Shown here piece after piece: positions 7,601 through 58,822 of a stretch of 64,000 bases of DNA. How positions within the stretch are numbered: the stretch's first letter is position 1; each line of letters opens with the position of its first letter. The notes under the pieces are model-generated. The model did no database searches. It saw only the letters and a program-made list of their open reading frames with translations, and was not told the origin of the DNA. The DNA comes from Obelidium mucronatum (taxonomy: Eukaryota; Chytridiomycota; Chytridiomycetes; Chytridiales; Chytriomycetaceae), in NCBI GenBank assembly GCA_025765595.1, contig JAIVFH010000124.1, forward strand, positions 1 through 64,000. Reading direction: 5' to 3'. Both the position numbers and the translations under genes were made by a program.

Positions 7601-7614
7601 TTAGGGGTAGGGCT

Positions 7615-7880: not shown

Positions 7881-7905
7881 AAGAAAAAAACGAAAAGAGA
7901 AAACT

Positions 7906-12615: not shown

Positions 12616-12750
12616 TTTGGGATAGATAACACATTGTGTTCCAAATCACCAGGTGTGTGCTTCAACATATTTACTTTATATTCGTCATGGTCAAGAGTTT
12701 TATTAAATAAACACATTGTGTTCCAAATCACCAGTACTAGAAAACACACG
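12516..12750 (+). repeat. 3' LTR of the complete copia element
   Basis: 235 bp, identical by eye to 7,615-7,849. Preceded by the purine tract AAGGGGAG and followed by the target duplication GGGCT. The last 33 codons of Gag-Pol lie inside it. Confidence 0.9.
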
Positions 12751-12820
12751 GGGCTTCGGTTGGTTGGTAATGGAAAATGGTATTTAAACAAAATACAATA
12801 AACTGTTTATTATTCATGTT

Positions 12821-21152: not shown

Positions 21153-21330
21153 ATCTTGGTTGTTTTGCCTTTTTTTGTCTTGCCCAAGTAATTCCTACCA
21201 AACAATCCTCTTCCTGAGAAAGCTTGTCTCAAGACAGAGATGTCAGACAAGCTGTTTCGCCAAGACCGAGCTTTCCCAGCATCATTGAAATGCAACCAAT
21301 CTGCGGCTTAGATCCCTTGAACAGAAAAAA
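21153..21330 (+). pseudogene. Remnant of the GTPase-like gene downstream of the large gene
   Basis: 21,265-21,330 matches, at roughly three bases in four, the stretch at 24,519-24,585 that encodes GRLPSNVEIQPYCGLGP in the GTPase-like gene. The frame is broken here. The same remnant follows the damaged copy of the large gene at 41,100-41,220, so it was duplicated together with it. This suggests the large gene and the GTPase-like gene were once neighbours or one unit. Confidence 0.5.
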
Positions 21331-21559
21331 CCACCCGGTCTTTTCCAGTACGTTAATAAAAGATTGGGAAATTTTTTCCGTCTCCCTTATCTTTCATTGG
21401 CAGAAAAAAACAGAAAAAAGTGAAGTCCCGTCTAAGTCCAAACAACATGAAGAAATGACAAGTGCGAATCAACTGAGCAACGGACTGCAATCAAATCGAC
21501 TCCAACGGACAGACGCTTCAATCAGCCAGGCTGTCGACGACTACCCAGAAGCAACGGCA

Positions 21560-35979: not shown

Positions 35980-36530
35980 TCATATGTTCCTGTTGGAATT
36001 GGGTAATGACTGGGGATCGGACTTTTTTTCACTTTCTTCTGCTACTTTGTATTCTTTTTCTTTTGCTCTTGTTTGGTTTCTTGAAGTAATAGAATTTTGT
36101 CCCAATTTATCAACCGCATCGTAAATTACTTGTGCCTTTACCGTGACCCCAGAATCCAGACCTCCTGGGCCCTTCAACTATATCAGTCTGAGGTTGCAAT
36201 TTCTATCATCATACCACTTCCGCGCCTTCCCTCTTTTGACTGCGTATTCCATTAATGGGCAACGGTTTGGCACGTCTTTCAACAACACTATGCAGAATCC
36301 CAATGGGTTCCCACTTAAATACCCAGTATGTTTCTTTACTACTTCCGGTTTGCATGAATCTATCGGAAGAACCAGGAAATACAACTTTCTCCTTGTTTTG
36401 ATAGAGAAAGACGTGGAAGTGGCGAGTAACTGATTCCACACACCAAATGGACTCTCTGTTCAGAGTAATCTGTCTGGAATCCTGGATCAGCATGAACGCG
36501 ACTATTGTAAAGAGAGGGGGTAAGTGCAAG
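35980..36530 (-). CDS. KDZ-element small gene 3, unrecognised
   Basis: Minus-strand exons: about 36,530-36,215 (after an acceptor ctttacaatag), reading VAFMLIQDSRQITLN and VFLYQNKEKVVFPGSS to EGAEVV, then an intron of about 40 bp, then GGLDSGVTVKAQVIYDAVDKL with a basic C-terminus and stop at 35,980. It lies between the two larger genes of the element, tail to tail with gene 1. An upstream exon (ATG near 36,604) is possible. No family recognised. Confidence 0.4.
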
Positions 36531-36715
36531 AGGGGAACTTTATGGATGGATGTTACCACTTACTCGCAACTGTGAGGGACACAAATTCACCACATGCTCC
36601 ATGTTCAGAATACTAAAAAAATATATGCTGCAATTTCTTGAATTTGACTTTGAATAAATGCTGAATGGTTGACACCAAAGGAGCGCGGAATAGAAATATT
36701 TCGGGGTTACCATGT

Positions 36716-39629: not shown

Positions 39630-39794
39630 TGCGATAACTTCAGTTGGTGTTTCTTTTTCATTTCGACGCTTTTACTGATGAATCATGAGCGATACAGAAA
39701 AATTAAAATGATGAATTTTCCGAAGTCGTAAAAAGACCTGGTGAATTTTCTTCAGAAAGCCACTTTGAGAACAAACTCCAACAGTCCAATAATT

Positions 39795-41012
39795 ATGTGG
39801 TTTCTCGCTACCCTCGCTACATCCGTTATTGTGCTTGTTATTTACAGCGTACAGCTACCGGGTTTGTCCAGCCGACGTAGAAGAAGCGAACTGAAAGAAA
39901 TAGCCCACAAAGTCGACGTTTTGCTGGATCGCTGCTTTGCACATCTCGTGGGTCTGGAGGAAGTATGCGCTCACAAAGATGTCTTTCTATTTTTACTAAA
40001 CCGATCCTTCCGAGTCAGGTCCGAAAGGAACTGTCGAAATCTGGAGTTGGTTTCTTGTTGCGCGAAAAACGTCGTATGGAGGGCAAAAAACCTGGCGCGG
40101 GGAATGGTGATGATGCTCTGGATCATTTTATGGTTTTAGGCAAACCTGGCGTTGGGAAAACCACTGTTGCCGAGGCTCTTGCAAAGTTCTTGATATCGGT
40201 ATATGATTAAATGCACAATGCCTTCATCTTACTTTTCATTACCCTGGCTGGAAAGATTGGTCGTTGCGACAGGATGAAGAAAGTCTCACGAGCGGATTTA
40301 GTTGGTTCATACGTTGGCCAGACCGAGCGGAAGGCGAAAAAGATACTACAAAACAAAAAAAGTTGTATTATCATTGACGAAGCATACACGTTGTACCAGC
40401 CTGGCGCCTCTGGGTCTGATTACGGGAAAATAGCATTGGAAATCATCCTTCTAGCCATGTCGGCGAAAGACAATGATATTGTAGTCGTTTTCATTGGATA
40501 CGAAGGGGCCATGCATGAAATGGGTAAAGTTAATGATGGCTTTTGGCGAAGAATCACCCAATCACTGACGATACCAGATGTAAGGCGGCAAATTTTTCTC
40601 TTCTTCCTTAATCACATGAAATCAATAGCTTACCGCAGTTGTAATGGCTGCTATTTTCGAGAAAAAAGTGGAAACAAAATATCTCTCTCTGGCGCCAGAT
40701 GTGACCACGAAATGGCTGGAAACCTTTTTTGAGGAGAATTTCAAAGCAGTTGGACAAAACCATAATGGATCTCTGCCAGTCAAGTTACTTGGACATGCAA
40801 CGCACTACTTGAATGCGAGAGTTGTCACAGAAGGTGACATGACGTTACGATTGACACGGTCGGATATTGAGAACGGTCGTGACGATTTGTTGTCGCAGTT
40901 TCGGATGTTGGACAGACATGTGGACTTTTCGGTGCATGTCTCTCAATTTTTCAAGAATTATGGACAGCAACTAGTATTTGAGGGCATCCGGTGGGTTATT
41001 TGCGGCAAATAG
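39795..41012 (+). CDS. CbbX/SpoVK-type AAA+ ATPase with N-terminal membrane anchor
   Basis: ATG at 39,795 opens a transmembrane helix (WFLATLATSVIVLVIYSV). Introns: about 39,961-40,017, 40,199-40,250 and 40,580-40,638. The AAA+ core shows Walker A GKPGVGKTTVAEALA, then SRADLVGSYVGQTERKAKK (the YVGQT signature of the CbbX family), Walker B CIIIDEAYTLY, sensor region VVVFIGYEGAMHEM, and an arginine-finger-like FWRRI. The C-terminal lid has LARDVT-like helical text (LTRSDIENGRDDLLSQF). CbbX-family ATPases are typically remodellers. The membrane anchor is unusual for that family. The gene abuts the right end of the KDZ element by 54 bp, so its promoter may lie in transposon sequence. Confidence 0.75.
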
Positions 41013-41098
41013 CGGAGGCCTGCGGTTAAAGGAACTGCTCGGATTGGAAATAAAGAATATTTTATAATGAGCTGAAGTCAACGGGCCAAACTACAGTT

Positions 41099-41746
41099 TC
41101 GACGGTTTTTTCTGTTCAAGGGATCTAAGCCGCAGATTGGTTGCATTTCAATGATGCTGGGAAAGCTCGGTCTTGGCGAAACACCTTGTCTGACATCTCT
41201 GTCTTGAGACAAGCTTTCTCAGGAAGAGGAAGGAATTACTTGGGCAAGACAAAAAAAGGCGAAACAGCCAAGATTTATTTCTCGTTCAAGACGCACTTCT
41301 TTTGTAAGAACCTTGATATTTGCCTCATCCACATAGTCAGCACATAACTGCAGAACGAGCTGCTTCGCGAAATTCTTGGTTTCGAGCGACAAGACTCCGC
41401 ACAATGACCAAGCAGCTTCGATTTCGTTTTGAAGAACCGCATCAAAATGCTCTCTCAAACCATCCAATGCCATGAACTTTTTCGCAGCACAAGTGACTTG
41501 TTCAATTACCAACTCATTCCAAGCCGTTGCTGCCAATGAATTTGTTGGCGTTTTCGCTTCTGCCGTTGGTATTTGATGTTCGATGTCGGTTTTGAGCAGT
41601 TGAACAGTTGAAAAAGCTTACCTTTCTTACCAAGACCCAATTGACGAGAGCGAATTTCTAATACTCTCAAAATGAGTTTAGATTGGGCGAGTTTCATATT
41701 GTCTTTCTTCAACCAAGGAACTCCTTGCAAGGCTTCACGAACGCGT
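41099..41746 (-). pseudogene. 3' part of the second copy of the large VLIG-like gene
   Basis: Read on the minus strand, 41,746-41,280 matches exons 9-10 of the 17,360-21,152 gene (LAQSKLILRVLEIRSRQL; AATAWNELVIEQVTCAAKKF), then jumps by a deletion of about 766 bp to the last codons (RLEREI). It ends in the GTPase-like remnant at 41,100-41,220. Its 5' counterpart is at 50,077-51,295. CGCGT at 41,742-41,746 is the complement of the ACGCG at 51,291-51,295 and is the target duplication of the gypsy element. Confidence 0.8.
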
Positions 41747-42672
41747 TGAGGTGTCTGTTATTGTATGGAGGAGGAGCGAGGGGAGTGAACGATGACGTCC
41801 TTTGGAACTTTTGGGATTTATTATTGCACACAATGCTAATAAATATAACAGACAAATAGAATAACAAATATAACTAGACGGTAGCGGGAATAAATAGAAG
41901 GATAAGTAGTGTCAGTAATAAAGGTGGTAATGAGGGATACGACATCACCCCCCCAGATTGTGAGTTGAGAGTTAAGTTGTTGGGAGTTAAATAGTAGGGG
42001 ATTTTTGTTTGCGTTTGGTGAGGTCTTTTTTGTGAAAGTCGCTGATGATTGTTGTGTTTTGGAAGTGGGAGTGTGGTACCCACTCGTTGTAGGAGTCGTC
42101 GAAGTTCTTCCAAGAGACTAGGTATTCCTTTTCCTGCGTTGGGCTTGTTCTAAATGCGTGGATTTTGGAGACTTCGGCTGTGGGTAGGAATGTAGTGTGT
42201 GCAGAGATTAGCTTTAATTGGTGTGGTGCGTAGTTACGGCTGAGTGGTGATCCGTCTGCGTCCAGTAGCTGATAAGTGGCGTTGCGTGTTTGCTTGATCA
42301 CTCTGTATGGCCCTTCGTAACGCGGTTCGGTTTTGCTTTCGCGGACGTCGGGTTTCGCCATAACGTAGGAGTTCAGAGGGAATAATTCGTCTTTCACGTT
42401 GAACTTTTTGTTGTATTTCTCTCGCATGATGGCTTGGTAGCGGCGGGTTGTGGCAGCAATCTCCGGGTAGACAAGGTCGTGCATATGGTCGCAACGTGCT
42501 TGAAGTTCTTCGAGTGATAGGTTTCTTTGTTGATCGAATGAGTAGTCTGTGAATGTGTTTGCTGTCCTTGCAAACATTAGACTAAAGGGGCTAGATTTAT
42601 GTGTGCGTGATATGTTTAGGTTAATAAATAGTTGTGACCATGGAACTAATTTATCCCAATGTGTGAGGTGAC
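41747..42672 (-). mobile_element. Ty3/gypsy element, 3' part (integrase C-terminus, chromodomain, LTR)
   Basis: Minus strand: from the breakpoint near 42,672 the frame gives HLTHWDKLVPWSQLF (end of the integrase core), then KSKTEPRYEGPYRVIKQT (GPY/F module), then KIHAFRTSPTQEKEYLVSWKNFDDSYNEWVPHSHF, a chromodomain (Y-x-V-x-W...W-x-P), closing at 41,987. A G-rich polypurine tract follows at 41,945-41,957 and a 198-bp LTR at 41,747-41,944. A chromodomain marks this as a chromovirus. The missing 5' part is at 51,296-56,676 in the opposite orientation, with an LTR differing at about two positions. Confidence 0.85.
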
Positions 42673-45600
42673 AATGGTGCGGAGGAAGATGCAACCGCAG
42701 CATCGGAATTTGGGATTGCAACATGGGTGTCAGACGAAGTCGCTAAGAAAATAGAAAACCTAAAGACAGTAATGGTGAATAGCGATTTAAGATTTAGAAT
42801 AGCTTCACTTATCAAAAGTTTGACTAAAGACCAACAATCGCAAACAGGAACAAGAAGAACAAAGACTTCTGAAGAAAGAGAGATTGCCCAAAGCGGCAAG
42901 ATTAGAGAAAAGGCAAGAAAAGTCAATTGGAATGAATTCCATGAGATTGCTCACCTCTCAAATCAGCTCTTGAAAGATTCCATAAACGCGAAGATGGTGG
43001 TGGGGGTCGAAATTGATAAGTCAAAGAAGGCTAATTCGACAACGAAATCGAATAAAGTGTCTTTGGAAAACTGTAATAGAAAAGAATGTGTTAGTTGTGC
43101 CCTAGGAAAAGCACATAGAGAAAAGATTTACAGTCGCGTTGAAGGCAAAGCAACACGAATAGGCGAAAGAGTTCACATCGATAGCATAAAATTACCTTGC
43201 AAATCTTTAAACCGAGAAGAATGGGCAGTGCTCATTGTAGATGAATTTTCGAGATACGCGGTCATCAGATTTTGCCGCGGAAAAGGAGATATAACAGAAA
43301 CTATAATAGAAGAATTGTTAAGATGGGAAGAGAAACACGAAATGCACATCAGAGAAATTAGAAGTGATGAAGGCAAAGAAATCGTGAATAAGGAATTAAG
43401 AGAAGCGTTCGCTCGAAACGAACGAAGGCCACTCTCAACCCAATTCACTCCTAGCCCACCTTATACAAAAGAAATGAACGGACTAGTTGAAAGACTGGTT
43501 AGAACAATGAAAGACTGCGTAATTACAATGTTAATTCACTCACGTCTGACAAAAGTTCTCGTCAAAGAAGCCGCGACGACGTTCATAAATTATAGAAATA
43601 AATTAGTACACAAACAGGCTGGTTACCCAGAAGTGGGGAAGTACTCACCATATTATTTATGGGAAGGAAAACCCGCAAGAATAAACAGGGAATTACCATT
43701 TGGATGCCAAGTGACGATATTCCAGGACCACGACCAACGAGACACAGTTTGGAGTGACCGTGGAGTACCTGGAATATATTTGGGGTTAGAAGGAAACTCA
43801 ATATATAGAGTCTATGACCTCACGTCGCGTAGAATAACCAAGGCGTTTAACGTCGTGGGCCATCCAGATAGATTTCCTGGTCTAATTAGAAAATTAGATA
43901 ATAGATTAGAAGGAATAGCGGACCCGCTAAGCCACTACCCACCTCTTCACGCACCGCTCTCCCAGAAGGAAGTGGATGAAATATGGCGTGATGAGAAAAC
44001 AGATGTGGAAGAAATGATAGAAGATACAAACGTACCTGAAACGCGTTATAATCTTAGACCGAGACCGCTGAGAGAAGGAATTCCAGAATCAACGAGTACT
44101 ACGATTCAGGGGAGGAATGAAGATGAGAGTCTTTCACCCGAAGTAGGAAACACTGAAATAAAAGAATTGGAAAAGACTCACAGTGGAATCGAAAGTACAG
44201 TTGAAGAGAAAATAGACGAAACTGTAAAAGACATAGTGGAGTTAGCACCAGAACTAGTAATCCCACACCCAAAAGACATAGAATGGGAAGATGGAGATAT
44301 AAATCTAAGCGAAGATGAAGAGAACTCAACTGTTGGGGACTCTGACTTCGAAGACAATCTTGCTGAAGGCGAAACAGCAAGAATACCGCTAGAACCAGAA
44401 AAATCAGATAAAATCCATATGGTCCAATGGGATCCTGAAGGATTAGAAGAAATATTAGATAAATGGGGAATAACCAGAAGATTAAAAGCAAAAGGCGAAA
44501 GTGAGAAACTTAACGCGTTTATGCTGACAGTCCAGAATAAGATCGAGAGAGATATTCCTGAGAACAAAGGTTTTAGACAGAAACTCGAAAAGAGAATTAA
44601 TCACAAAGTCAAGAAAAGAAACGTACTTAGAATAAGAGCGTTCTTGACAGATCCTGTGATGAGACCGATAGTTGAGAACGCTATCGCCGAGTCGGTACAA
44701 CCGTTCAAAGAGACAAATCCTTTCCCTGACGAAAAGATCATGATTGATGATTTAGAACCAGTCCCTCAATCATTGAATCAGGCGAAGAAGTCTAAATATT
44801 GGTTAAAATGGCTAGAGGCGATGAAGCTAGAGATGAACTCACACTATGAGATGAAAACCTTCGGATATATAAAACGATCACAGGTTCGTGACGGAAAACG
44901 CCTGCTGAGAAGCAAGTGGGTGTTCGACTACAAACTAGATATGGCGAACGGATGTTTGCTGAAGTTCAAAGCTAGGTTAGTCGCAGTCGGATCATCCCAA
45001 GAGTACGGGATAGACTATACAGAGACTTACGCTCCTGTAATCAGAAAAGAGTCATTGCGGGTGATGATCGCTATGTCAGAACTGTATGACTGGCACATCG
45101 CGCAACTTGACGTTTCAGTCGCTTTTCTTTACGGCGATCTGAAAGAAAGAAACTTTATGCGAGCACCAGAAATGTTCCCGCAGTATGGACCTGATGGAGA
45201 AAGCCTAGTATGCGAAATATTTAGATCGCTATACGGGTTGCATCAGTCTGCGAAAGAATGGAACGATGTGCTTACAGCGTTTCTAAAGGAGAACGGTTAT
45301 AACCAAAGTCAAAAGGATTTATGTTTATTTCACAAATACGATAAAGAAACAAAAGTATTCGTATTAGTTTATGTTGACGATTTCTTAGTTGATGTCTTCG
45401 AGTAAAGAAATACTCAAAGAACTGAAAGAGAACAATCGGAAAGCGATTCAACATAAAAGACCTCGGAGATGCAAAACACTGTGATTGGGATGCACTACGA
45501 AAAGATTAATAATAAGAAATATAACGGCTCTTGGATTGGTCAATCTGAGTATTGCCGCGAACTATTATTAAAGATGAACATGTGGAATAAAACAGTAAAT

Positions 45601-46468
45601 GGTAAAACCGTACCTATAGAAATAAAGAAAACTCCGATGTCTCCAGGATGGGAGCACTGACGAGAAAAGTAAACTCCTAAGTAAGGAGAAGAACTCAGAA
45701 TACAGGTCAGCGGTGATGAGCTTAATGTACTTAGCTGGACACACGCGACCCGATATAGTGTTTGCAGTCCATGTACTATCGCAGTATCAGAATGATGCAC
45801 GCGAAGAAGACTGGAAGGCGCTGCTACACTTGTGCAGGTATCTGAGAGGAACATATGATTATGGGATTTTCTATCGAAAGTCAAAGAACCCACCAATCTT
45901 ATTTCCGACAGATGAATCGCTAGATCAATGGTTGCAGATGGAGTTTGGCGATATCGTAGGATACGCAGACGCCAGTTTTGCGATGTCAAAGGGAAGAAAA
46001 TCCAGATCAGGATATCTCTTCATGATGTCGTCAGCGATCGTATCTTGGTATAGTAAGAAACAGTCAGTAGTAGCGCTGTCTTCAACAGAAGCGGAGTTTT
46101 ACTCACTGTCTGAGGCAATAAAGGAAGCCCTCTGGTACAGACACGTACTGGAGGAGATCGGCTACCCGATAGAAAAGCCTACAGTAATAAACCAAGATAA
46201 TAAGTCAACGATTGCAGTGGCAACAAACCCAAAGCACCATGCGATGATGAAGCACATTGACATTAGAGGCAACTTTATTCGTGATCATTTAAAGAAAAAG
46301 GCCGTTGAGCTGATATATTGCCCAACAGAAGACATGATCGCGGATATAATGACTAAAGCGCTGCCAGCGACGCAGCACAGAAAGATAGTCTCTCTAATGG
46401 GCATGAGGTCCCTCGCAGACTTACAGTTAAGAAGTCCGATTCGAGCTTTCACAGAACGCAAGTTCTGA
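42673..46468 (+). pseudogene. Copia Pol (integrase, RT, RNase H), frameshifted
   Basis: Long frame 42,673-45,405. The HHCC module of integrase comes first (HEIAHLSNQ, CVSCALGKAH), then the DDE core (HIDSIKL, RSDEGKEI, EMNGLVERL). A long acidic linker follows. RT has KWVFDYKLD, KARLVAVGS, DVSVAFLYGDL, LYGLHQSA and catalytic LVYVDDFL. Just after YVDD a frameshift (about 45,400) moves coding to 45,469-45,660, and another moves it to 45,713-46,468, which carries RNase H (GYADASFAMS, LSSTEAEFYSL, NQDNKSTIAV, ADIMTKAL). Protease and zinc knuckle are not present between the breakpoint and integrase. Confidence 0.85.
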
Positions 46469-46671
46469 GATCGTCCTATAGTTATTGTTTTTATCCTTTA
46501 TAGACGAAGAGTAGAGGTTTTTCGATAGACTATAGATTGAGTTTTAGGAGTTGGGTCGTACCCATCGTGGCTGACGCCTGTTTTTCGATCTCCTGAGAGG
46601 AGACTCCTAGAATGAGATAGAGCGAAATTAGAAAGCTCTGACGGTGTATCGATATTCACCTTGAGGGGAGG

Positions 46672-47002
46672 TGTTGAAGGTAGATAACCTTTATTGATAT
46701 ACAAGCTTAGAATTCGAGACACGTCAACGTCAAGTTTATTACGTAAGAAAACACAAGAAACTCCAAGTCTACCCAAGCTTCAGTTCCATCTTTGTAACCG
46801 TAAACCACTGGAGACAAGCGAATTAGTAATCAAGACGCGAGGTGGGAAAAGGGGACAAAATGGAATATAAAAGTGAAACAACCTGAAACGGGGTTATAAA
46901 AGGAGGTGTACGTTCTAATAATAAACTACTGATAGTTCCCAGAAATGTATTACAACTCACCTCCAGTGCAGAACAAAGGACCCGAAGACGCAGGGTCCAA
47001 CA
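46672..47002 (+). repeat. 3' LTR of the second copia element (331 bp)
   Basis: TGTTG...CAACA ends; identical by eye to the reverse complement of 57,308-57,638. It includes the start of Gag: the ATG at 46,945 opens MYYNSPPVQNKGPEDAGSN, so in the 5' LTR copy translation begins inside the LTR. Confidence 0.88.
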
Positions 47003-47464
47003 ATGTCAATCCCGCAGAATTGGCTTGTCTTGGTTTTTTGAATGACAATGCCACCAGCAAAATTCCCTTCACTTTTAAATTCTATCTGGGAAAGCCTGTG
47101 ATGATAACAAAGCGTATTCCAGATTTGGAGCACTTGAAGATCTTTGCCAAGGGTTTATATGTAGCTTTCTCTCAAAGACATTGATATCCATAAGACTTGT
47201 GCAAAAACTTTCCATGGCTTATTCAAGAAAGTTCTGGCCCCCCCAAAAAATTTGAAGACAAGATGATTCGTCTCATTAATTTGGTACAACTGCCGGATTA
47301 TACTGCCAATCATATTATACAGTCCTTCCATCAATGGAAAGACGAGCTTTTGCTCTTGCTCTTTCTTAAGTATCAACTCGGTTTTATGCAGTACTATTCT
47401 TTAAAAGTTCTAAAAAAAATTCTAAAAAGGTCCTAGCGGATGGCTTGCCACCGCACCTCAGTTT
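47003..47464 (+). pseudogene. Helitron helicase copy 2, 3' part
   Basis: From the target duplication ATGTC the sequence continues as the helicase of copy 1 (ELACLGFLNDNATSKIP...HLKIFA), jumps by an internal deletion to LYVAFS, then runs to the PPKKF...RLINLVQLPDYT end. It finishes in the hairpin at 47,428-47,458 and CTCAG. The missing 5' part is at 57,639-57,900 on the minus strand, beyond the copia element that interrupts it. Confidence 0.75.
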
Positions 47465-48597
47465 TTCATAGTCGCCCTTTCCGAAGTTCTTCTGGTCGTA
47501 GGAAGCCACTGCCAAATCAAACTGTTGGAGGACATTTGAACAATTGTAGCTTGTTACATTTCTCAAGATGTCCACAATCATTTCATGGTAAGTCACATCT
47601 CGATATTAGTCTTGCAACGTCGCGTCCATTAATTATTTTGCCTTGGACACGGCTTTACTATCTGCCTTGCACCACTCAACCTTGTTGTTGCGTTCAATCC
47701 CATCTTGGATTTCTTTGAACTGCTCCAATTCATTTTTCTGGTTGACCGCCAAGATTTCCATTTCAGATTCAATATCCTGAATAGCAATCGCGATTGGGCC
47801 TGGCGTTTCGACTGCGGTAAGTCTTCTCTCTCCTGCCTCATTCTGAACCACTTGGACAACTAATTGCCCTGTGTGTTCTAAAGAACTTGGATAAATCTGT
47901 GGAGGAGTCAACTTAGCGTAGGCGAGTCTTTTCTTAAACTCTCCAATTCTTCTAATCAGATTTGTCTTTTCCGCCAGCTGTCTTTCGACCATCGCTGTTC
48001 TACGGGGAACGGTCTTATCCATCAAATTAATGATGGTGTCACCCGTAGTTCTGTATATCTTGTCAAAGAAGCCAAAGACTTTGACTTTCTCATGGGTTTG
48101 CTTAACCCAAGCGTCAACAGTCATTCTTTCAACAGCCGTAGCGGCAGTCAAGATGAGTTCGGTCTTCATTTTAACTAGTTCTGAATCTTTTTCTTTCAGG
48201 TCTGGGAGGTCTGTTTTCTCAATGTTTTTGATACTTTCAAAAGTTTTCCTCAAAACATCAATTGTTCTCTCAATACCGTAAGTTTTGATTGGTTTATATT
48301 GTTATTTTATTCCGATTGTTCTTTTCTTTGTCTTTATAAACAATGGAGGCCTTTTTAACAACAAACAACCTTTCAAACCATCAAGTCTTTTGGTTTCCCA
48401 AATCTGAGGTTCTTTTGGTCTGCCAACTTTAGGTCTTAGTTGGTTATTCCTCACAACTTTAGGTCTTAGTTGGTGAGGGCCTTTGATCTTAAGTCTACTA
48501 AGACTTTTTATCATCTTTGTGTTAGACCCTGCGTCTTCAGGTCCTGTGGTCTGCACTGGAGGTGAGTCCTATATCATTTCTGGGAACTATCAGTCCT
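47465..48597 (-). pseudogene. Gag remnant of the second copia family, with partial 5' LTR
   Basis: Minus strand from 48,597: the last 70 bp of the 331-bp LTR type with an in-frame stop in the Gag start, then LKIKGPHQLRPKVV, KTFESIKNIEKTDLPDLKEKD, VERMTVDAWVKQTHEK, RRIGEFKKRLAY and a further 100 residues (QIYPSSLEHTGQ...NQKNELEQFKEIQDGI). It closes on the Helitron end at 47,464 via an open stretch (TYHEMIVDILRNVTSY). This copy shows what Gag looks like past the point where the copy at 56,677 is cut. Confidence 0.65.
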
Positions 48598-49230
48598 TTA
48601 TGTTGATTTGCGGCGAGCTAATGTAAGCTTTATGTGGTTAATTGTTTGTCAGGAGACAAGTTGTTATCTTTTTCCCTGCCACAAATTCCGCTTTTAAAGC
48701 GTTTTACTGTTGCTTTAGTCTTTTACATGGTCCCATTGAGACCTGTTGAGGTTGAAAACCTCGTATCCCATTTGCCCATTGAGGCGGTGCATCAACTTGA
48801 CATGGCTATTTCCAATTGAGGGAAATTAGTGAAGGGGAAATTTATCGCCGTCTGACGGCGTTAATACTCAATAATAAAGGTTACATTTACAAAATGTCTT
48901 CATCTTTCTACATGTGAGCAGCTGATAAAAACCAAATGCCGCCAAGGTCCAAAAGCATAACCCATCTCTGGTTAAGGCGTCCCTTCATCTCGGCAGCGCA
49001 CGGCCGATGTATTATGGTGTTTTGGTTTGGAAAGCATGCAGGAAAGATGTGTTTGGGGCAGCGGTCAAGGCGCTTGCTTAGAAATCGTTATGCCCCAGGT
49101 TCGAATCATGGAAACTCCTTTTATTCTAACAATAAAGATTCGGGTTGAATTATTCAATACGTACAACTTATAGTTTATTTCTAATCTCTGTTAAGTAGTG
49201 CAAGTGATATTGTATCTTTATGCGTAATAC
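48598..49230. other. Region without a recognised gene; tRNA-like relic inside
   Basis: A short open frame at 48,634-48,819 (LPQIPLLKRFTVALVFYM) has no recognisable family. 49,050-49,115 resembles a class II tRNA (A-box-like GCAGCGGTCAAGGCGC, B-box GGTTCGAATCAT) but lacks a pairable acceptor stem, so it is a relic or SINE head. Confidence 0.4.
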
Positions 49231-49488
49231 TCAACAGTTTATTATTAAAACGTACACCTCCTTTTAAACCCCGATTCAGGTTGTTTCACTTTTATAGTCC
49301 ATTTTGTCCCCTTTTCCCACCTCGCGTCTTTATTTTTAATACACTTGTCTCCAGTGGTTTACAGTTAACAAAGATGGAACTTAAGCTGGTAGACTTGGAG
49401 TTTTCTTGTGTATTCTTACGTAATAAACTTGACGTGTTCGAATTCTAAGCTTGTATATCAATAAAGGTTAGCTACCTTCAACAGACTG
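49231..49488 (-). repeat. Degenerate LTR of the second copia family
   Basis: Reverse-complement match to the first 260 bp of the 331-bp LTR with many small differences. It ends CTTCAACA at 49,488 and abuts helicase copy 3. Confidence 0.7.
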
Positions 49489-49866
49489 CCCCAATTTTAA
49501 CCCGCAAACCTTCTACATTGCATTATCAAGAGTTCGTAAATTGTCAGGTATTAGACTTCCTGCCAAAATAACTCCTCATTATGCTCGAAAGCTCAGGCCA
49601 CCGAAAAAGTTTGTGGCGGAAATGGTCTGTTTGATAAATATGGTGACTGTCCCTGTCCCTGAATATGCCTGCCCAGCCATATTTGTTGCCTTCAACAGTT
49701 GGAAAGAAGAGCAGCATCTGTTTTCTACCCCTTTTTTCTGATTCCATTCTTAATGGATTCATTTTTTTCTCTGATTACTTCTATTCACATAAATACATTT
49801 TATTGCATTTGTCCCCAGTAAGCTAAAAAGGTCCTAGCGGAGGACAACGGCACAAACGCACCTCAG
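49488..49866 (+). pseudogene. Helitron helicase copy 3, C-terminal end and 3' hairpin
   Basis: FYIALSRVRKLSGIRLP followed by ITPHYARKLRPPKKF and MVCLINM, aligned with the end of copy 1, then the terminal hairpin (49,829-49,863; stem AGGT/ACCT and GCG/CGC conserved while the loop has diverged) and CTCAG at 49,862-49,866, followed by T. Confidence 0.7.
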
Positions 49867-50076
49867 TCTTTTATTGACTATCTGGTTCTAAAATTTTCTG
49901 CCGTGTCATCAGATGGCCAGTATGTGTTGATTATTCTGATGGTACCTTCACTGAATGTGAGTGTCATCGAAATTAGGCTTGCCTTTGCCTTTTCACATTT
50001 TGTGAAGTGTCTACTCCATTTATCTGTTATAATGATTCCGGTACCTGCTGCTTTTTGTGTGGTGCCTGTTGCGTTC
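49867..50076 (-). pseudogene. LINE APE-type endonuclease fragment
   Basis: Minus-strand frame with GTGIIITDKWSRHFTKCEK and GTIRIINTYWPSDD, the middle of an AP-endonuclease-like LINE domain (the R-I-I-N-x-Y-x-P strand). It starts exactly where helicase copy 3 ends, so the Helitron appears to have inserted into it. It ends where the pseudogene copy of the large gene begins. Confidence 0.65.
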
Positions 50077-51295
50077 CGAAAGCCATGAACCAGTGAGTGT
50101 GGATACTGTCCAATACTTAACATACAAATCAGTCCATAATGGAAGCAAGAAAAGGTATCTTTCTTGGCGTAAGTAATCGATTTGTTGTTGGTTTTGGTTG
50201 TTGAATGACACTGTTCATGCATCAAAACAAATAGAGAATGCAACATTTGTACACGACCGTAATAACTACTACCACGTTATGGGTACGTTCCGTTTTTTGT
50301 ACCCTGACAATATGAGCTCTAACGCAGGAATTAAAAATAGACACGGATGGAGTTGTGACGTTTCAACTAAACAACTGCGTTTCAAGAATCGAGAAGGAAC
50401 TTGAGAAGCTCCAACCTCTTCCGTTTGGCAACAACTATAAGGTTGTTTTGGAAATAAAACGCGGACGACATCAAGGAGTACCGCCGAGTCTCGATGGAAG
50501 AATTACAGATCCGAACAGGAACCCTGTTTTAATTGAGTTTGATCTGCCAGTTTCTCTTCTTGAAACTTATCGGAAAGAGCTTGATGATGGACAATACACT
50601 GTGACTGCATGGTTTGGTGAACACTTGCTTGAGCCTGCATCACAAGTTACGGAGACAGTGAGTGGGAATATTGGGCTCACCACGGAAGCAATCGACAAGG
50701 TTTTTTCTTTCAAGAACGAAAGAGTGGATGGAATTCTGTTCAAGAATTCCGACCAATTGAGAGATTTCTCCGAGCATTGTTGGAACAGATCGCAACAACA
50801 GTGGATTATATCAGTAAGTCATTATATTCCTTCAAACCATCACTCTTGGTTGATCTGACGTTGGCCATTGTAGCGCCGGCTTGAGGGCAATGTCATTTCA
50901 CCATCGCTTTTGAGTGAGCTGATTGGGCTGATCAAAGAAACCAGTGTCCAGACTCTAAACAAACTTGAAAATCGAAGAATTGGTCGCTGGAATCCAGATA
51001 TGAAGTCGGTGGACGATATCATTAATGTACAACAGATGAGGGAAGAGAACGATGAACTTGTCCACGAAGAAATCGGCGCCGTTAATAAAGGAGAACAGTC
51101 GAATGAAAGCTTGATGAGCCAGAAGTTTGAAGTTGGGTGGGTCAATTCTTCTCTACTAGAGCTATTCTCCAGCCGAGCCGCCGTTTGTTAAAGTAGTTTC
51201 AGAGAATTCTGCCTCTGAACTGCCGCGGCCAGCCAAACCCGCGCCCACTCTTCAAAAAACGGACTCGCTCTTTCGGGCTTTTTGTGCACGACGCG
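50077..51295 (+). pseudogene. 5' part of the second copy of the large VLIG-like gene
   Basis: Matches exons 2-5 of the gene at 17,360 with the same introns (VQYLTYKSVHNG, KRYLSW; VFSFKNERVDGILFKN; NRRIGRWNPDMKS). A deletion of about 1.18 kb then joins 51,163 to the equivalent of 19,793. It runs through SELPRPAKPAPTLQKTDSLFRAF to ACGCG at 51,291-51,295, where the gypsy LTR begins. Small indels versus copy 1 lie near 50,400 and 50,545. Confidence 0.8.
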
Positions 51296-51538
51296 TGTCG
51301 TATCCCTCATTACCACCTTTATTACTGACACTACTTATCCTTCTATTTATTCCCGCTACCGTATAGTTATATTTGTTATTCTATTTGTCTGTTATATTTA
51401 TTAGCATTGTGTGCAATAATAAATCCCAAAAGTTCCAAAGGACGTCATCGTTCACTCCCCTCACTCCTCCTCCATACAATAACAGACACCTCATTTTTTC
51501 CTTTGAGTACTTTATACCACACAATACCTCTCACACAC

Positions 51539-51930
51539 TGCGGGTTGACAGTCGCTACATGGCACTGCAACTTTAAGCACAAACTCACCTGCGGGTTGGC
51601 GGCCGCTAAATGGCACCCCAATTTAACGCACAACACACAACTGCGGGTTGACAGTCGCTAACTGGCACTGCAACTTAAAGCAACACACCACTGCGGGTTG
51701 GCGGTCGCTAAATGCACCCCAATTTAACGCAAACACACAATCGCGGGTTGGCGGTCGCTAAATGCACCCCAATTTAACGCAAACACACAATCGCGGGTTG
51801 GCGGCCGCTAAACAGCACTCCAATTTAACGCAAACACACAATCGCGGGTTGGCGGTCGCTAAATGCACCCCAAGTTAACGCAAACACACAAAGTCGCTAA
51901 ACAACACCGCCACTTAAAGCAAAATACAAT
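51539..51930 (+). repeat. About seven tandem 49-52-bp units in the gypsy leader
   Basis: Each unit carries GCGGGTTGGCGGTCGCTAAA or a close variant and an AATTTAACGCAAACACACAA-like half. Units alternate between two subtypes in the first half. It sits between the 5' LTR and Gag, where packaging and primer-binding functions lie. Confidence 0.85.
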
Positions 51931-52110
51931 TAACCCAAAGTGCACCTGTTCTTCCTTAAAACACAACGCAACACACCAGGTGGCACCCGAAATAACCCAA
52001 GCAAAGCCGAGACCACCAGAAAAAGGCACCAATTTTTACTAAAAACCAAGAATCGAAAATCCTATTTATCCAAGCCCGACAAAAGAAACAAACGAAAACC
52101 AGCACAACAC

Positions 52111-53407
52111 ATGCAAACAGTCGAAGAACTCCAAGCTGAACAAGAGCGCATCGCCGCCGAAATCCAACTCCGCCGCAACGCCATCAATGCTGCGAACAAC
52201 CGCCGCAACGCACAACGTCTACAGGGAGAACAACTCGCAACACGCAAACTCCAAGCAGACGAAGCGTTTACTCTTTGGACCGCAGCCCAAGATGAACTCG
52301 ACACAATCACAAACCGCGAAGACTCCACCAACGAACAAGTCCAGAGAGCTACAGATGCACTCGAATACCGCTTGACCGACTACCAAAGAAGAAAATCTTT
52401 AGCTTCCGAAGCAGAAGAACGTTACGACGCACAACGACAACAAACAACAACCATTTCCGCAAGCCCTACCACCACCCCGGCCACAAAAAATCCGTGACCC
52501 TCCCGCAAAACTCCCAAAATTCCCAACAACCACAACCACCAAAGATGAAATCCTTATCTGGGCAGAAGACACACAAACCATGGTAAGAACCCACCAAGCT
52601 ACTCCACAAGAACTCCCAGCCTGGCTAGAGACAACAGTAAACCACAGACAATTCTCGAGAGCCTCCGCCGAAGCAAGCGCCAGCACCGGCTGTAAAGACA
52701 TTAGCCGCTTCCTGATCAAAGTCTTGGACACTCACTTCGGCAACGACCTCAATGGAACACTAAACCGAGAGCTCCAAAACATGCGAATGCTACCAACGGA
52801 CCCAGTAGCAGTGCACCATGCCAAGTTCGATAGATTGATTGCCTACTTCGAAACATCAATGTCAGTAAAAGACAAAATCAAACTATACGTCAACACTCTC
52901 ACCTCGGACTTGAAAATTGGCCTCGGACCAAAGATTGGGAGCTTTTCTTCGATTCTAGAGGCGCAAATGGAAGCCGAAGAACTGGATGTCTTCTACTTCC
53001 CGGTCAGAGCAACTCAACACATTGTAGCACCAGCAGCCGCTCGCCGCTTCGAACCAAGACGCCCCTCCGCCAGTTTCAGCATCTTACCAGACGCAAAAAA
53101 CAGCCCTGCAACCACCAAAAGCTGCAAAGTTCACGGCCCCGGTCACAATGATGCCGAATGCCGCGAACAAAACGGCCTGTCCGCCTCTGCAAACCCAAGA
53201 CTGCCAGTTTGCGCCCACTGCAAAGCTCTCAAAACTGCCAATCCCGACAAGTACATTTCCTTCAAACACCCAGAAGAAGCATGCTTCAACAAACACCCTC
53301 ACCTTCGTCCAACCCCGATCTCCATGAAAACAATGTCCGTCGAGGTCGAAGATGAGGAATTCTACACAGAAGCAGAAGACCAGTTCGAATTCTGGGCAAA
53401 TGACTGA
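52111..53407 (+). pseudogene. Gypsy Gag
   Basis: First frame 52,111-52,497 is a coiled-coil-rich N-terminus (VEELQAEQERIAAEIQLRR). At a run of A residues near 52,488 the frame shifts, and coding continues as KDEILIWAEDTQTM and the capsid-like helices (FLIKVLDTHFGNDLNG, YVNTLTSDLKIGLG). A zinc-knuckle-like CKVHGPGHNDAEC, a second C-x2-C, and an acidic C-terminus (EVEDEEFYTEAED) follow. The break at the A-run could be a real shift site or a mutation. Confidence 0.7.
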
Positions 53408-53710
53408 CGTCGACTCATGAGTGTCTTTGCTTCCAAATTTTTTTACTTGATATTTTTTTCCGGTCTTTATCAAATGACTTACGATTGAGCCCTTATTTTT
53501 TTTTCCGCTAAGCGTCAAATCATCTACCACAATAAACATTTATCCAACGCAGCACTATCGTAGTTATCTAAAATACCAGAATAAAACAATAAGACTCATT
53601 TCAAATCCGAAACAACGAAATAAAAATTAAACACCAAAATAAAACGATTCAATAAGCCACCCAAATTCACATAAATACAAAGCAATTCCCCCTCCAAAAA
53701 GACAACAAAT

Positions 53711-56676
53711 TTGCCCAAGCACGCAACGCTCAGCCAGAAGACACTAACAAGCAAAATTTCCAACGCACAAGCCAAAAACGAAATGACACAATCACCAAAA
53801 TTTTCCCCCAACCTCAACTTTTTGAGCCAACCACCCCCCGTCTTACCCACCAGTGCCAACAAGACGGACTATGACACCTACAACGCTGCCATCAAGGCCC
53901 GCGCAACAGAACTACTCCAAGCCACCACCGCCTACATGACGCTGAATCCAGGCCAACTGATGAGAACAAACATCCTCGTCAACGGAACAGAACGTTGGTG
54001 CCTAGTCGACCCAGGCGCCATGTGTACTTCCATCGACGCCAAGTGGGCCAAAGCCGCGGGTATCGAAACTAGCCACTCCGTCAAAGTTCTCGTTGAAGGT
54101 TACGACTGCAAGCCCGTTTGGGAAAACGTCGAAGTCTCAAAACCAGTCGTCTTCACCACTTACCAAGGTAACTCTAACTGCCAATAAATTGCGACACTAA
54201 ACGGACAAAAGGAACCCACGTCGTTGCTGCCGTCATGCTGAAGGACAACCCGAAAGAAATTGTAACGCTTGGCCAAGACGTCCTACCAAACCTCGGCGTC
54301 GGAAGCACAGGTCTACAAACATTTGCTCTACCCGTCGCCCCTGAGGAATTTGAAACAAAACCCGAACAAGCGGTCAAATTCCCCAACGGTAAACAAAATT
54401 CCTCCAAAACACACACTGTATACAAAACTAAACCAAAAACCTCCACCTACAGGACCTCTACAAGAAGATGACTCCCTGGCAAGAGAACGCTTCCTAAAAG
54501 CCGTGCAACCACACTTGGACGCCAACGCAGCACTCTCTAAATCCGACCACCCCGATGATGTAATCACCATTGACCTCATCGACGGTGCCGAACCGACCTA
54601 CATCAAACAGTACCGCCTGCCATTCAAAAAGCACGCCATCGTCACAGAACAGATATCCAACTGGCTAAAAGACGGAATAGTGTCACTAGCCCCCGGCACA
54701 AGCTCATACAACAGCCCGCTCATTTGCCCTCCACGCATAGTAAACGGCGAAATCACCAAGTACCGAGTCTGCGTCGACATTAGAGCCGTCAACAATAATA
54801 CGAAAGACTACAAACGCATCTACCCAGGCGCCCGCGACGTTCTAGAAGAAGTCACAGACTCCAGCATCTTCTCTACCATGGACCTAGACGGAGCCTACCA
54901 TCAATACATCCTTGCCCCGGAGCACCGTCACCTCACCTCCTTCTGCTGGAACGGCCAGCGATACGTATTCAACGCCCCACCATTTGGACTCAAAAACGTA
55001 CCAGTCCAATTCCAAGAGCTGATGGAAAAACTTTTCATCAAAGACAAATTTGTCAAGGTAAAAAACTCTTTCTCTATATTAAACCTAAATTTTGCTCTAA
55101 CTCCAAAAATCAAAGATTTACATCGACGATCTCTTCATCCACTCCTCATCTTGGGAATCCCACACCCAACACGTGATATCAGTTCTCAAAACCCTGACGG
55201 CCGCAAAACTTCGCATTAAACAGTCTAAAAACTCACTAGGACATCGAGAAGTCAAACTACTAGGATTCTTGAAAAGCGCAGAAGGTATCAAGATTGACCC
55301 CGACCGATACCTCGCCATCAGCAAATGGAAAACTCCAAGACAATCAAAAGACTACACCTCTGTCGCACATATGTTGGGCTTCATGAACTACCTCCGGGAC
55401 AGCATTCCATTATACTCCACCCTTGCGGCCCCATTGGAATCAATACGTGCCGTTACAAATTTGGAAGCGATATGGACAGATGAACATGAAGCCTCCCTTA
55501 AAGCTCTGACCGACGCTGCCATAAACGCACCAATCTTGGCAACACCAGACTTCGATCGCAAGTTCTATGTTGCCACCGACGCTTCAAACTTCGGGATCGG
55601 AGCCATGCTGTACCAGCTTGATGACAAAGGATCCCGTAAATACATCCAATTCGCAGCCAAATCGTTTTCCATACACCAACGAAACTACTCTGCCACCCAC
55701 AAGGAGCTTCTCGGGATCATCTACGCACTCGACAAGTTCCACCCGTACCTCTTTGGCGAACACTTCATACTCGAAACCGACCACAAAGCCCTCACGTACC
55801 TGTTTACCCTCCGTCGAACTCAACGTATTGCTACAAGGATGGATTGAAAAACTGCTCTCGTACAACTTCACAATCACCCACCTACCCGGCATCCAAAACA
55901 AACTACCAGACGCCCTCAGCCGCATCGTCCACACCTACGAGACCGCCATACCAACATGCCGGTCCAAACCATCACCACCATCCTATGAACCAATGGTATA
56001 CGGCGACATCCTATCCTTCATGGACGTCACAAAATCCTCTGCAACACAAGACGTGATCAACCTGGCGCAAAAGACAATGAGCGTATCTGACCCCACCCTT
56101 CGCGAAACAGTCCCCGATAACGAACGCCCAAGCCTCTTGGAAACAATTCACAGCATGGGACACTTTGGAGCCGACTCAATCGTACGTCAGCTTTGGAGAG
56201 CAAACAAGACATGGCCTGCTATGAAACACGATGCACTGGAACACGTCAAAGCATGCCCCGAATGCCAAAAGTGGAACATAGCGCGCCGAGGCTTCCACCC
56301 CATGACATCCATTCATGCCGAATTACCCCTAGACCACGTTGCCATCGACCTCGCCACCATATCAACAACTTCCGCCGACGGATTCAACTTCATCCTAGTA
56401 TTTGTGGACGTAGCCACCAAATTTACACTCCTCCGTCCACTTAAAACTAAAACGCAACAAGAACTAGCAACAACTCTACTACAAATCTTTACAGACTTCG
56501 GATTCCCCCGCATCATCCAAAGCGACAACGGCAAAGAATTCGTAAATAACCTAGTCCGAGAACTCCTCGCCCACTCAAAAACAACCCACCGCCTCACTAC
56601 ACCATACAACCCTCAATCCAACGGTCTGGCTGAGAACCACGTTAAAACCGCAAAACAGACGTTGCTGAAACTCCTG
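53711..56676 (+). pseudogene. Gypsy Pol (protease, RT, RNase H, integrase), frameshifted
   Basis: Protease has VDPGAMCTSID near 54,005. A frame break near 54,170 precedes RT, which has YRVCVDIRAVNN, FSTMDLDGAYHQY and FGLKNVPVQFQELM. A 64-bp block at 55,058-55,120 with GTAAAA...AAAG edges then interrupts it just before the catalytic YIDDLFIHS. RNase H follows (VATDASNFGIGAML, SATHKELLGI, TDHKALTYLF) with another frameshift near 55,810. Then come the integrase zinc module (HSMGHFGAD, CPECQKW) and the DDE core (VAIDLATI, QSDNGKEF). The block before YIDD looks like an intron within RT. Confidence 0.8.
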
Positions 56677-57638
56677 TAGGCAAGTCTTTTCTTGAACTCT
56701 CCAATTCTTCTAATAAGAATCGTCTTTTCTGCCAGCTGTCTTTCGACCAACGCAGTTCTACGGGGAACGGTCTCATCCATCAAATTAATGATGGTGTCAC
56801 CCGCAGTTCTGTAAATCTTGTCGAAGAAGCCGAAGACTTTGTCTTTCTCATGGGTTTGCTTAACCCAAGAGTCAACGGTCATTCTTTCAACAGCGGTTGC
56901 GGCAGTCAAGATGAGTTCTGTCTTCATTTTAACTAGTTCTGAATCTTTTTCTTTCAGGTCTGGGAGGTCTGTTTTCTCGATGTTTTCAATACTTTCAAAA
57001 GTTTTCTTTAAGACATCGATTGTTCTCTCAATACCGGAAGTTTTGATTGGTTTATATTGTTCTTTTATTCCGATTGTTCTTTTCTTTGTCTTTATGAACA
57101 ATGGTGGCCTTTTCAACAATAAACAACCTTTCAAATCATCAAGTCTTTTGGTTTCCCATATCTGAGTTTGTTTGGTTCTTCCAACTTTCGGTCTTAGTTG
57201 GTTTTCTTTCACAACTTTGGGTCTTAGTTGTTTTTCTCTCACAACTTTAGGTCTTAGTTGGTGAGGGCCTTTGATCTTAAGTCTACTAAGACTTCTTAAC
57301 ATCTTTGTGTTGGACCCTGCGTCTTCGGGTCCTTTGTTCTGCACTGGAGGTGAGTTGTAATACATTTCTGGGAACTATCAGTAGTTTATTATTAGAACGT
57401 ACACCTCCTTTTATAACCCCGTTTCAGGTTGTTTCACTTTTATATTCCATTTTGTCCCCTTTTCCCACCTCGCGTCTTGATTACTAATTCGCTTGTCTCC
57501 AGTGGTTTACGGTTACAAAGATGGAACTGAAGCTTGGGTAGACTTGGAGTTTCTTGTGTTTTCTTACGTAATAAACTTGACGTTGACGTGTCTCGAATTC
57601 TAAGCTTGTATATCAATAAAGGTTATCTACCTTCAACA
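56677..57638 (-). mobile_element. Second copia element, 5' LTR and Gag part
   Basis: Minus strand: 331-bp LTR 57,638-57,308, then Gag to the breakpoint at 56,677 (KTFESIENIEKTDLPDLKEKD, VERMTVDSWVKQTHEK, RRIGEFKKRLA). The 250-aa ORF begins with the ATG inside the LTR (MYYNSPPVQ). GACAT at 57,639-57,643 is the complement of the target duplication ATGTC at 47,003. Joined to 42,673, the frame reads on as RLAY-NGAEED without a shift. Confidence 0.85.
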
Positions 57639-57900
57639 GACATCTTTCAAAGCCTTCACTACAATCTGATAGCACACCAACTGCTTCTTCCAAGCCAAGT
57701 CCATGACTGCCTACTGCAAGACAGCACATCGTTCAAGATTCTTTGCAGTGGCCACTGGAGCAAAGAGTTGGCAAGACATTTGACAAAGTAGATTGGGAAC
57801 TTGCAGCACTGATTGCATCAATGTCAGACTTGAATAATGCTCCCCAGCACATTTGCGCTAGGATCCCCATGAGTACATGGTCTGAATACAAGTTTGTCCT
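57639..57900 (-). pseudogene. Helitron helicase copy 2, 5' part
   Basis: The reverse complement aligns with 110-370 of copy 1 (SEYKF/WGSLAQMCWGALFKSD-type text through the VxDFxxEKQLVCYQIVVKAL region), ending at the copia target duplication. Several substitutions remove the exact frame. The AT-rich palindromic repeats follow upstream, as in copy 1. Confidence 0.65.
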
Positions 57901-57904
57901 TCTG

Positions 57905-58055
57905 GCACCAGACCTGTATCCAATAAAATAGGATTATTGGAAGGTACCATTTTCCAATAAAATAAAGATATTGGAAAGGCCAATTTCCAATAAAATAAAA
58001 ATATTGGAAAGACCATTTTCCAATAAAATAAAATATTGGAAAGATGGAATCAAGG
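57905..58055. repeat. AT-rich palindromic minisatellite (3-4 units)
   Basis: Units of about 31-33 bp: TTTCCAATAAAATAAA...ATATTGGAAAG, each a potential hairpin of eight pairs (TTTCCAAT/ATTGGAAA). Same family as 1-95. Confidence 0.75.
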
Positions 58056-58167
58056 GAAAACAGACCTTTGTTAAAAACACAACAAAATGCAAGTTTGCCC
58101 ATCAGCAGCAACATTTGAGCCCCTCCAACGCTAGTCTCTCACTCAAGCAGATGTTTCAGTGCCTAAA

Positions 58168-58310
58168 CTGTTGTAGAGGGACTGGAAGCGGTGCTGGTTC
58201 TGTAGACAGGTGAGCTGATCGTTGTGGGCACTAGAGAGATTTTGGAGAGAATTCTTAAACTTTATTCCCAAACATGGAGCTTGCAACATGAGTTTCATGT
58301 GCCTCCAACA
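58168..58310 (-). repeat. LTR of the first copia remnant family, with PPT
   Basis: Near-copy of the LTR at 2,092-2,235. On the minus strand it is preceded by the polypurine tract CTTGAGGGGAAG (58,311-58,322), so it is the 3' LTR of a copia element whose body is gone. Confidence 0.7.
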
Positions 58311-58387
58311 CTTCCCCTCAAGCGAACATGATTGAATAAAGAATGAATTGAACAACGATCAGACTTGGATCATGTGACATGAATGTG

Positions 58388-58822
58388 ATACCAATAAAGT
58401 CATACTTGTTCAGTTATGTGAAGACCGACGCTCCCCGGAGGAGTCCCCGCGGGAGCGTCGGTGGCCTGCACTGAACAGCAGGCCAGACTTTATTTACGTA
58501 TTCTACAGAAATCAGAAAACCCGTGTTACCGGGAGAGGGGTTGTGGGAATTTTGAGTGCGTGAGGGCTGGCAGAGCCAGCTGAGGAATAAAGTCTGGGGT
58601 GCTGTTCAGGGCGGGCCACGGAGAAAGGGTGGATTGAGGGTGGGTCGCTCGCCCGCGCTGCGGGGGTTGGAAAAAGGAAAATGCTGTAAATTGGTAATTT
58701 ACGGCTTTTCCAGGCTTGACTGGCGGGATCTCTCAATATATCTATCCCGCACAGTCAACCCTCAAACGCGTATTATACCAATAAAGTCATACTTGTTCAG
58801 TTATGTGAAGACCGACGCTCTG
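58388..58822 (-). repeat. DIRS-like element terminal region: direct repeats and hairpins
   Basis: A 46-bp sequence containing ACCAATAAAGTCATACTTG occurs at 58,388-58,433 and 58,775-58,820. The first copy runs into two adjacent hairpins: CCGACGCTCCC/GGGAGCGTCGG (58,425-58,461) and TGGCCTGC/GCAGGCCA (58,462-58,485). The second copy ends in a smaller CCGAC/GTCGG stem. Repeats beyond the recombinase ORF are expected for split-repeat DIRS-order elements, which circularise before integration. The matching other end lies outside the window. Confidence 0.6.

Follow-up and report, generated by a model that had tools for sequence, protein, structure and literature searches.

A 14-kb inversion with breakpoints inside a gypsy and a copia retrotransposon in an assembled contig of the chytrid Obelidium mucronatum

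Retrotransposons of the Ty1/copia type and of the chromodomain-bearing gypsy families carry long terminal repeats (LTRs), are flanked by 5-bp target-site duplications (TSDs) and have a characteristic order of domains. In the available part of a human–chimpanzee comparison, 49 inversion loci are attributed to recombination between related retroelements, a further 63 inversions (41 at L1 and 22 at Alu) have a retroelement at one breakpoint only, and it is noted that breaks at inverted repeats may lead to end joining (PMC2603318). For the fungus Verticillium dahliae, the accessible portion of one report ascribes 19 rearrangements, including 6 inversions, to faulty double-strand repair, often at transposons, and concludes that the factor associated with them is sequence similarity (PMC4971763). 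Copies of the Drosophila transposon Galileo are likewise tied to inversions, by ectopic recombination between copies of one transposon to judge from the title (PMC2775673). Here we analyze the first 64,000 bases of the 91,161-bp contig JAIVFH010000124.1 (C124) of Obelidium mucronatum, hereafter the window, in which a segment of about 14.0 kb lies inverted between the interior of a gypsy element and the interior of a copia element. The assembly comprises 48.3 Mb in 694 contigs, designated by C and a number.

The locus resembles the human–chimpanzee cases as far as that source describes them: there are two chimeric retroelements with mismatched TSDs, and matching these duplications gives the ancestral order. 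It differs in that the two elements are unrelated and were joined non-homologously with loss of sequence, which places it nearer to the inversions with a retroelement at one breakpoint. Transposon copies accompany the inversion here as they do for Galileo, but two different transposons are involved, and unlike what the consulted part of the Verticillium dahliae study reports, the junctions show no sequence similarity. The kind of event is thus already known, and what is new is a well-marked non-homologous instance; in the portions of the O. mucronatum and chytrid retrotransposon-inversion literature available to us, we found nothing on this locus. The segment, its junctions and the parts of the two elements are as follows, the junction bases having been set by alignment with further copies of each element.

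41742–41746, minus strand: gypsy target duplication ACGCG, outer copy
41747–41944, minus strand: gypsy 3′ LTR, 198 bp, 99% identical to 51296–51493 in inverted orientation, against 92% for the next best copy in the genome
41945–42669, minus strand: chromodomain-containing 3′ internal portion of gypsy (PF00385, Chromo, E 2.2e-7 in Pfam); collinearity with C48 extends to 68479
42668–42670: junction A; gypsy ends at 42669 (T), copia runs from 42669 or 42670, 1 bp (T) common
42670–56675: inverted segment, 14,006 bp
42670–46671, plus strand: internal portion of copia with Pfam matches to integrase core, SH3 and RVT_2, 97.8–98.1% identical to copies on C93, C387 and C569
46672–47002, plus strand: copia 3′ LTR, 331 bp, 100% identical to 57308–57638 in inverted orientation
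47003–47007, plus strand: copy of the copia target duplication ATGTC that lies within the flip
51291–51295, plus strand: gypsy target duplication ACGCG, copy inside the flipped segment
51296–51493, plus strand: gypsy 5′ LTR, 198 bp
51494–56675, plus strand: gypsy 5′ internal part, open reading frames (ORFs) with RVT_1, an integrase zinc-binding domain (Integrase_H2C2) and rve, cut beyond the core
56675–56676: junction B; gypsy ends at 56675, copia begins at 56676, 0 bp common
56676–57307, minus strand: copia 5′ internal part with Gag-side ORF, 97.2–97.3% identical to copies on C93, C387 and C124:78914–79545
57308–57638, minus strand: copia 5′ LTR, 331 bp
57639–57643, minus strand: copia target duplication ATGTC, outer copy

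An earlier note, made from this DNA alone, had proposed that a single inversion explains four broken features at once, namely the two retrotransposons and the host sequences that flank each of them. All four are indeed rejoined when the segment is flipped. The two gypsy LTRs stand in inverted orientation and differ at 2 positions (196/198 identical), with the ACGCG duplications matching on opposite strands; the copia LTRs show 0 differences over 331 nt, and their ATGTC duplications also match on opposite strands. Each pair is mutually nearest, as the note had expected: the best match outside the pair is 92% for gypsy, among at least 31 genome matches, and 98.8% for copia (C86:131890–132221), among at least 38, all such genome-match counts being lower bounds. 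As a control, we took the related elements for which both LTR sequences were retrieved (5 copia and 4 gypsy); nine of nine have matching 5-bp TSDs, and their LTR pairs differ by 0–2 mismatches, one pair also by a 1-base gap.

The domain content agrees with the assignment of the halves. RVT_1, Integrase_H2C2 and rve are found on one side of the flip and Chromo on the other, as in chromodomain-bearing gypsy elements, where reverse transcriptase and integrase are followed by the chromodomain; the part at 51296–56675 is 97.3% identical to C48:73905–68488 and holds a tandem array with a unit of ∼50 bp from ∼51532. In the copia element the integrase lies upstream of an RVT_2-type reverse transcriptase, the Ty1/copia order; within its 892-residue ORF, Pfam places rve at residues 144–232 (30 bits, under the cut-off of 32.6), SH3_retrovirus at 315–384 and RVT_2 at 723–888. 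The frame of the Gag-side ORF is open from 57365 to the junction, and a Pfam search with it returned no family. Unlike intact members of either group, each of the two elements is in halves that lie on opposite strands and lacks sequence where it was broken.

The strongest further evidence for the ancestral order comes from related host loci that lack the elements.

1–1217, plus strand: diverged paralog of the host locus that bears copia, its site at 365–369 empty and un-inverted, ATGTC intact
17456–21332, plus strand: paralog of the gypsy-bearing host locus, with an empty un-inverted site at 19916–19920 (ACGCG)
41104–41746, minus strand: host locus, half beyond gypsy, matching window 19916–20368 and 21133–21332 on the opposite strand
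47003–47464, plus strand: degenerate host half adjoining copia, inside the flip, part of 47003–48159; also matches window 365–515 and 873–1217
50076–51295, plus strand: remaining half of the gypsy-bearing host locus, carried within the flip, matching window 17456–18611 and 19795–19921 on the same strand
57639–58388, minus strand: host half on the other side of copia, 99.3% identical to C140:11567–12316

The host halves next to gypsy, called a pseudogene in the earlier note, match the single paralog at 17456–21332 in pieces on opposite strands and so come together on flipping. The empty site of that paralog has two mismatches to the window flanks in the displayed bases; at a second empty site, C550:13496–13500, the displayed bases equal the two window flanks minus one TSD. 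On the copia side, 47003–47153 matches window 365–515 and 57639–58009 matches 369–1, on opposite strands, the paralog at 1–1217 being 89% and 74% identical on its two sides. C140 provides the closer comparison. It is 96.6% identical to 47003–48159 over C140:11571–10416, and its empty site at ATGTC (11567–11571) is exact in the displayed bases. C140 matches 51169–49237 and 48159–47003 on the minus strand and 57639–58388 on the plus strand, and its wider order agrees (39744–41294 plus, 51169–47003 minus, 57639–58388 plus). A comparison of C140:5700–12400 gave 8 rows; five are positional, minus inside the segment and plus outside it, and the three omitted are copia LTR and gag sequence matching an old copia fragment of C140 itself. 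The un-inverted order is therefore present in 4/4 loci, every one where the two sides of a site were compared, namely C140 and window 1–1217 for copia and C550 and window 17456–21332 for gypsy. The copia-side flank has 33 genome matches, and the other side was compared for C140 and window 1–369 only. As a feature of the assembled sequence, the inversion is well supported.

Alignment to other copies places the breakpoints at 42669/42670 and 56675/56676, which corrects the positions given in the earlier note (near 42,671–42,673 and 56,675–56,677). Both junctions join the gypsy integrase gene to copia gag or pol, and by coordinate arithmetic the closest LTR edges are 725 bp and 632 bp away. With 500-bp queries, the window alone spans junction A among 21 genome matches listed and alone spans junction B among 29, the others overrunning the latter by at most 1 base. 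The note had also read a 3-bp microhomology, TGT/ACA, at both breakpoints, a reading that fails: this triplet lies inside copia at 42671–42673 and straddles the join at 56675–56677, and it is not a microhomology because all three gypsy copies displayed lack it at the break position. Only 1 bp and 0 bp are common. Of 200,000 random joins between the C48 gypsy and a copia copy further along the same contig (C124:78.6 kb), 57% had 0 bp in common and 28% had 1 bp, which puts the observed values at chance level.

These junctions bear directly on how the inversion arose. With transposons at both breakpoints, the usual account would be ectopic homologous recombination between inverted repeats, as for Alu, L1 or Galileo inversions. 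Homologous inverted copies at both breakpoints are not what we find: the broken elements belong to different superfamilies and have no hit to each other of ≥60 bp in a self-comparison of the window (E 1e-10; hits of ≥60 bp listed), and the junctions share 0–1 bp. We regard this explanation as extremely improbable. Alternative transposition places breakpoints at element termini and was rejected, the breakpoints here being internal; staggered-break inversion leaves inverted duplications of breakpoint sequence at both ends and was rejected too, since bases are missing rather than duplicated at both breaks. Replication-based template switching, of the type of microhomology-mediated break-induced replication or fork stalling and template switching (MMBIR/FoSTeS), can yield inversions together with deletions, and with short or no microhomology. 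Two switches would be needed, however, usually with some microhomology and often with duplications. The 1 and 0 bp in common, the absence of extra bases from the junction alignments and the lack of any duplicated flank of ≥60 bp in the self-comparison make template switching, rather than cutting and rejoining, unlikely.

Comparison with other copies also measures what is missing. The gypsy ends are 8 bp apart in C48, and the loss is 8 bp in 4/4 relatives (C48, C62, C4 and C201), in the more distant C62, C4 and C201 after an ungapped 2-base extrapolation past the BLAST end; this fits the earlier observation that the gypsy join is about 2 nt out of frame. Six of the seven copia copies compared place the two ends 2,231–2,232 bp apart when the shared T is counted as copia; in the seventh, on C42, the distance is 1,681 bp. 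Measured on C48 and the C124:78.6-kb copia, the losses are 8 bp (gypsy) and 2,232 bp (copia) with the shared T assigned to gypsy, or 9 and 2,231 bp with it assigned to copia; two further copia copies give one base more. The note had stated that the copia halves join in frame, which is true only if the T came from gypsy; a one-in-three chance, it carries no weight as evidence. Its expectation that some copia sequence must have gone fits the ∼2.23 kb missing. By arithmetic, the missing part corresponds to residues 231–974 of the 1,119-residue ORF in the C124:78.6-kb copy and includes, at residue 758, a DTGA motif that we take to be protease-type; that ORF has no Pfam match at E up to 1. The missing zinc knuckle, which the note had also counted as a loss, means little here, because a pattern search for CX2CX4HX4C did not find one in the relative's 1,119-residue ORF either.

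The copia deletion could be older than the inversion: the element may first have lost 2.2 kb internally, with the inversion later breaking at that scar. Other copia copies do lack internal stretches that are present here (C42, C124:78.6–85.9 kb and C13). None of the seven copies compared, however, has a deletion with these ends, and a coincidence of positions would be required, so that two separate steps seem highly unlikely. Re-use of the lost piece elsewhere was considered and rejected: among 21 genome matches listed for the ∼2.2-kb stretch there is no isolated copy with those ends, 6 being full or nearly full length (the query itself included), all within family members, and 15 partial.

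The joins are non-homologous, share 1 and 0 bp and have losses at the breaks, in keeping with end joining, which leaves zero to a few base pairs of microhomology and losses or gains. We consider it probable that both elements were broken and that the segment between them was flipped and rejoined by non-homologous end joining with deletion. A chromodomain gypsy and a copia element would each have inserted, with 5-bp target duplications, into duplicated chytrid host DNA; the DNA would then have broken inside the gypsy integrase gene and inside copia, and the 14-kb segment would have been rejoined in flipped orientation with sequence lost at both ends, the 2.2 kb of copia through a third break or resection. 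We infer that the breaks were double-stranded, that end joining repaired them and that the copia loss belonged to the same event. End joining was also the mechanism favored by the earlier note, and it stands by virtue of non-homologous junctions sharing 1 and 0 bp, not in the form mediated by a 3-bp microhomology. The host block was already present in more than one copy, free of both elements, before the two insertions took place, and the flip came last; the insertions precede the flip because it splits both. The LTR differences (2/198 for gypsy, 0/331 for copia) only suggest the order of the two insertions.

Several points weigh against this account. A copia loss of 2,231–2,232 bp is large for simple end joining and requires an earlier deletion if not a third break or long resection. 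Over its first 333 bp (42670–43002), copia pol is 99.7% identical to a neighboring copia (C124:81778–82110), with ∼98% for the remainder, a local mosaic that end joining does not explain; local conversion or template switching during reverse transcription is possible. C140 carries the left flank a second time, inverted and further from the site (2075–3665), and is without the gypsy target stretch, so that it allows a base-level test for the copia site only. Finally, the evidence for the inversion comes from the assembled sequence.

This last point admits the rival that the contig was misjoined at two repeats to give a false flip. The earlier note had warned that an assembly error would produce the same picture, and it could: both junctions lie inside multi-copy elements, and the 694 contigs contain many near-identical repeats and large inverted duplications. 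Misassembly is expected at shared sequence, however, and here unrelated sequences are joined base-precisely, twice and reciprocally, without an N at the joins or anywhere else in the window. Such an error would also have had to drop ∼2.2 kb of copia and 8 bp of gypsy, and the nine related elements were all assembled with matching TSDs. A poor fit to these joins, an assembly error strikes us as distinctly unlikely.

C140 is collinear in pieces with C124 39744–72514 and could be either a rearranged allele or a segmental paralog; C124 36000–39000 has no counterpart on C140, its 98% matches being on C12 and C43. C140 itself contains an inverted duplication, 1861–3667 against 7566–5752, at 98.3%. 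Mismatches between the window and C140 number 5/750 bp to the right of copia, 25/1,164 and 46/1,955 bp inside the flip, and 24/1,358 bp to the left outside it. A divergence step marking the inversion as a recombination barrier was rejected, as the left outside flank is about as diverged as the inside of the flip. Identity to C140 does shift at the copia insertion point, from 96.6% (47003–48159) to 99.3% (57639–58388), possibly by local gene conversion.

The host halves adjoining copia had been described in the earlier note as parts of a helicase. Their rejoining holds, with opposite-strand matches at 365–515 and 369–1; the helicase identity is weakened. Their family accounts for 110 matched pieces in the genome. 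The protein encoded at window 124–1098 is 98% identical to the Obelidium mucronatum hypothetical protein P0001, which itself matches loci on C293 and C313 of the same assembly at 100% over 324/324 residues; Pfam returned 0 families for either protein. A 64% homolog, P0002, has a sub-threshold Pfam match to Herpes_Helicase (E 0.05). Against PDB sequences there were 12 matches up to E 1, the best an AAA family ATPase (0.0079), followed by chains named TPR domain protein or ATP-dependent DNA helicase (∼0.065) and Pif1 chains (0.49–0.6). Through these AAA ATPase and Pif1-type chains, the family may be said to resemble helicases marginally.

Two insertions that each have an LTR pair, a TSD and a paralogous empty site reveal both the ancestral and the derived order, together with the bases that either break lacks. 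At such doubly marked loci, end joining can be distinguished from repeat recombination without outgroup genomes, and automatic annotation could report four broken genes or elements where a single event suffices. As to recurrence, no genome-wide scan was made, and of two inverted LTR pairs of the copia family neither looks like a split element. C176:38955/47323 was rejected as a further inversion, its LTR lying within a 1.8-kb inverted duplication (99.6%, flanks included), as was C88:124273/137391, with inverted-duplicated flanks (99.8% over 1,065 bp; two 1.1-kb ends compared). That the duplicated, transposon-rich blocks of this chytrid are rearranged mainly by end joining inside fresh retroelements, and not by repeat recombination, is doubtful; if it were true, paired LTRs and TSDs would form a base-precise record of break repair across the genome.

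The copia LTRs on C176:38300–48000 and on C88 are seen inside near-perfect inverted duplications (99.6–99.8%). One further copia feature lies in the flipped segment:

47459–49483, minus strand: older copia fragment, its LTR split by an insertion of ∼635 bp at 48602–49236; it rides inside the flip

The insertion has related copies at C140 19772–20281 (∼510 bp of the insertion) and C550 11237–11859. Boxes A and B resembling those of tRNA genes are visible by eye, and ARAGORN found no tRNA; by its A/B box motif the insertion may be a short interspersed element (SINE). In the window as a whole, nothing was found by an Rfam scan at the gathering threshold or by a tRNA scan.

To the right of the copia-bearing locus, 58389–64272 is ∼5.9 kb of GC-rich DNA absent from C140, where its flanks are contiguous at 12316. 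It encodes a protein matching RVT_1 at the Pfam cut-off and, on the minus strand, one matching ALOG/zinc-ribbon below threshold, and it has a 114-bp direct repeat (58662–58775 and 64160–64273, 99%). We take it to be a possible tyrosine-recombinase retroelement of the DIRS/PAT type. Another copia-type element occupies 7610–12751; its terminal repeats are 241 bp long (99%), and a single ORF of 1,569 residues matches RVT_2, SH3 and, weakly, integrase. A 103-bp inverted repeat (31209–31311 and 33792–33894, 99%, 2.5 kb apart) possibly represents the ends of a DNA transposon, and 37093–37992 encodes a KDZ transposase domain (E 1.1e-17) within the 36000–39000 region that has 98% copies on C12 and C43.

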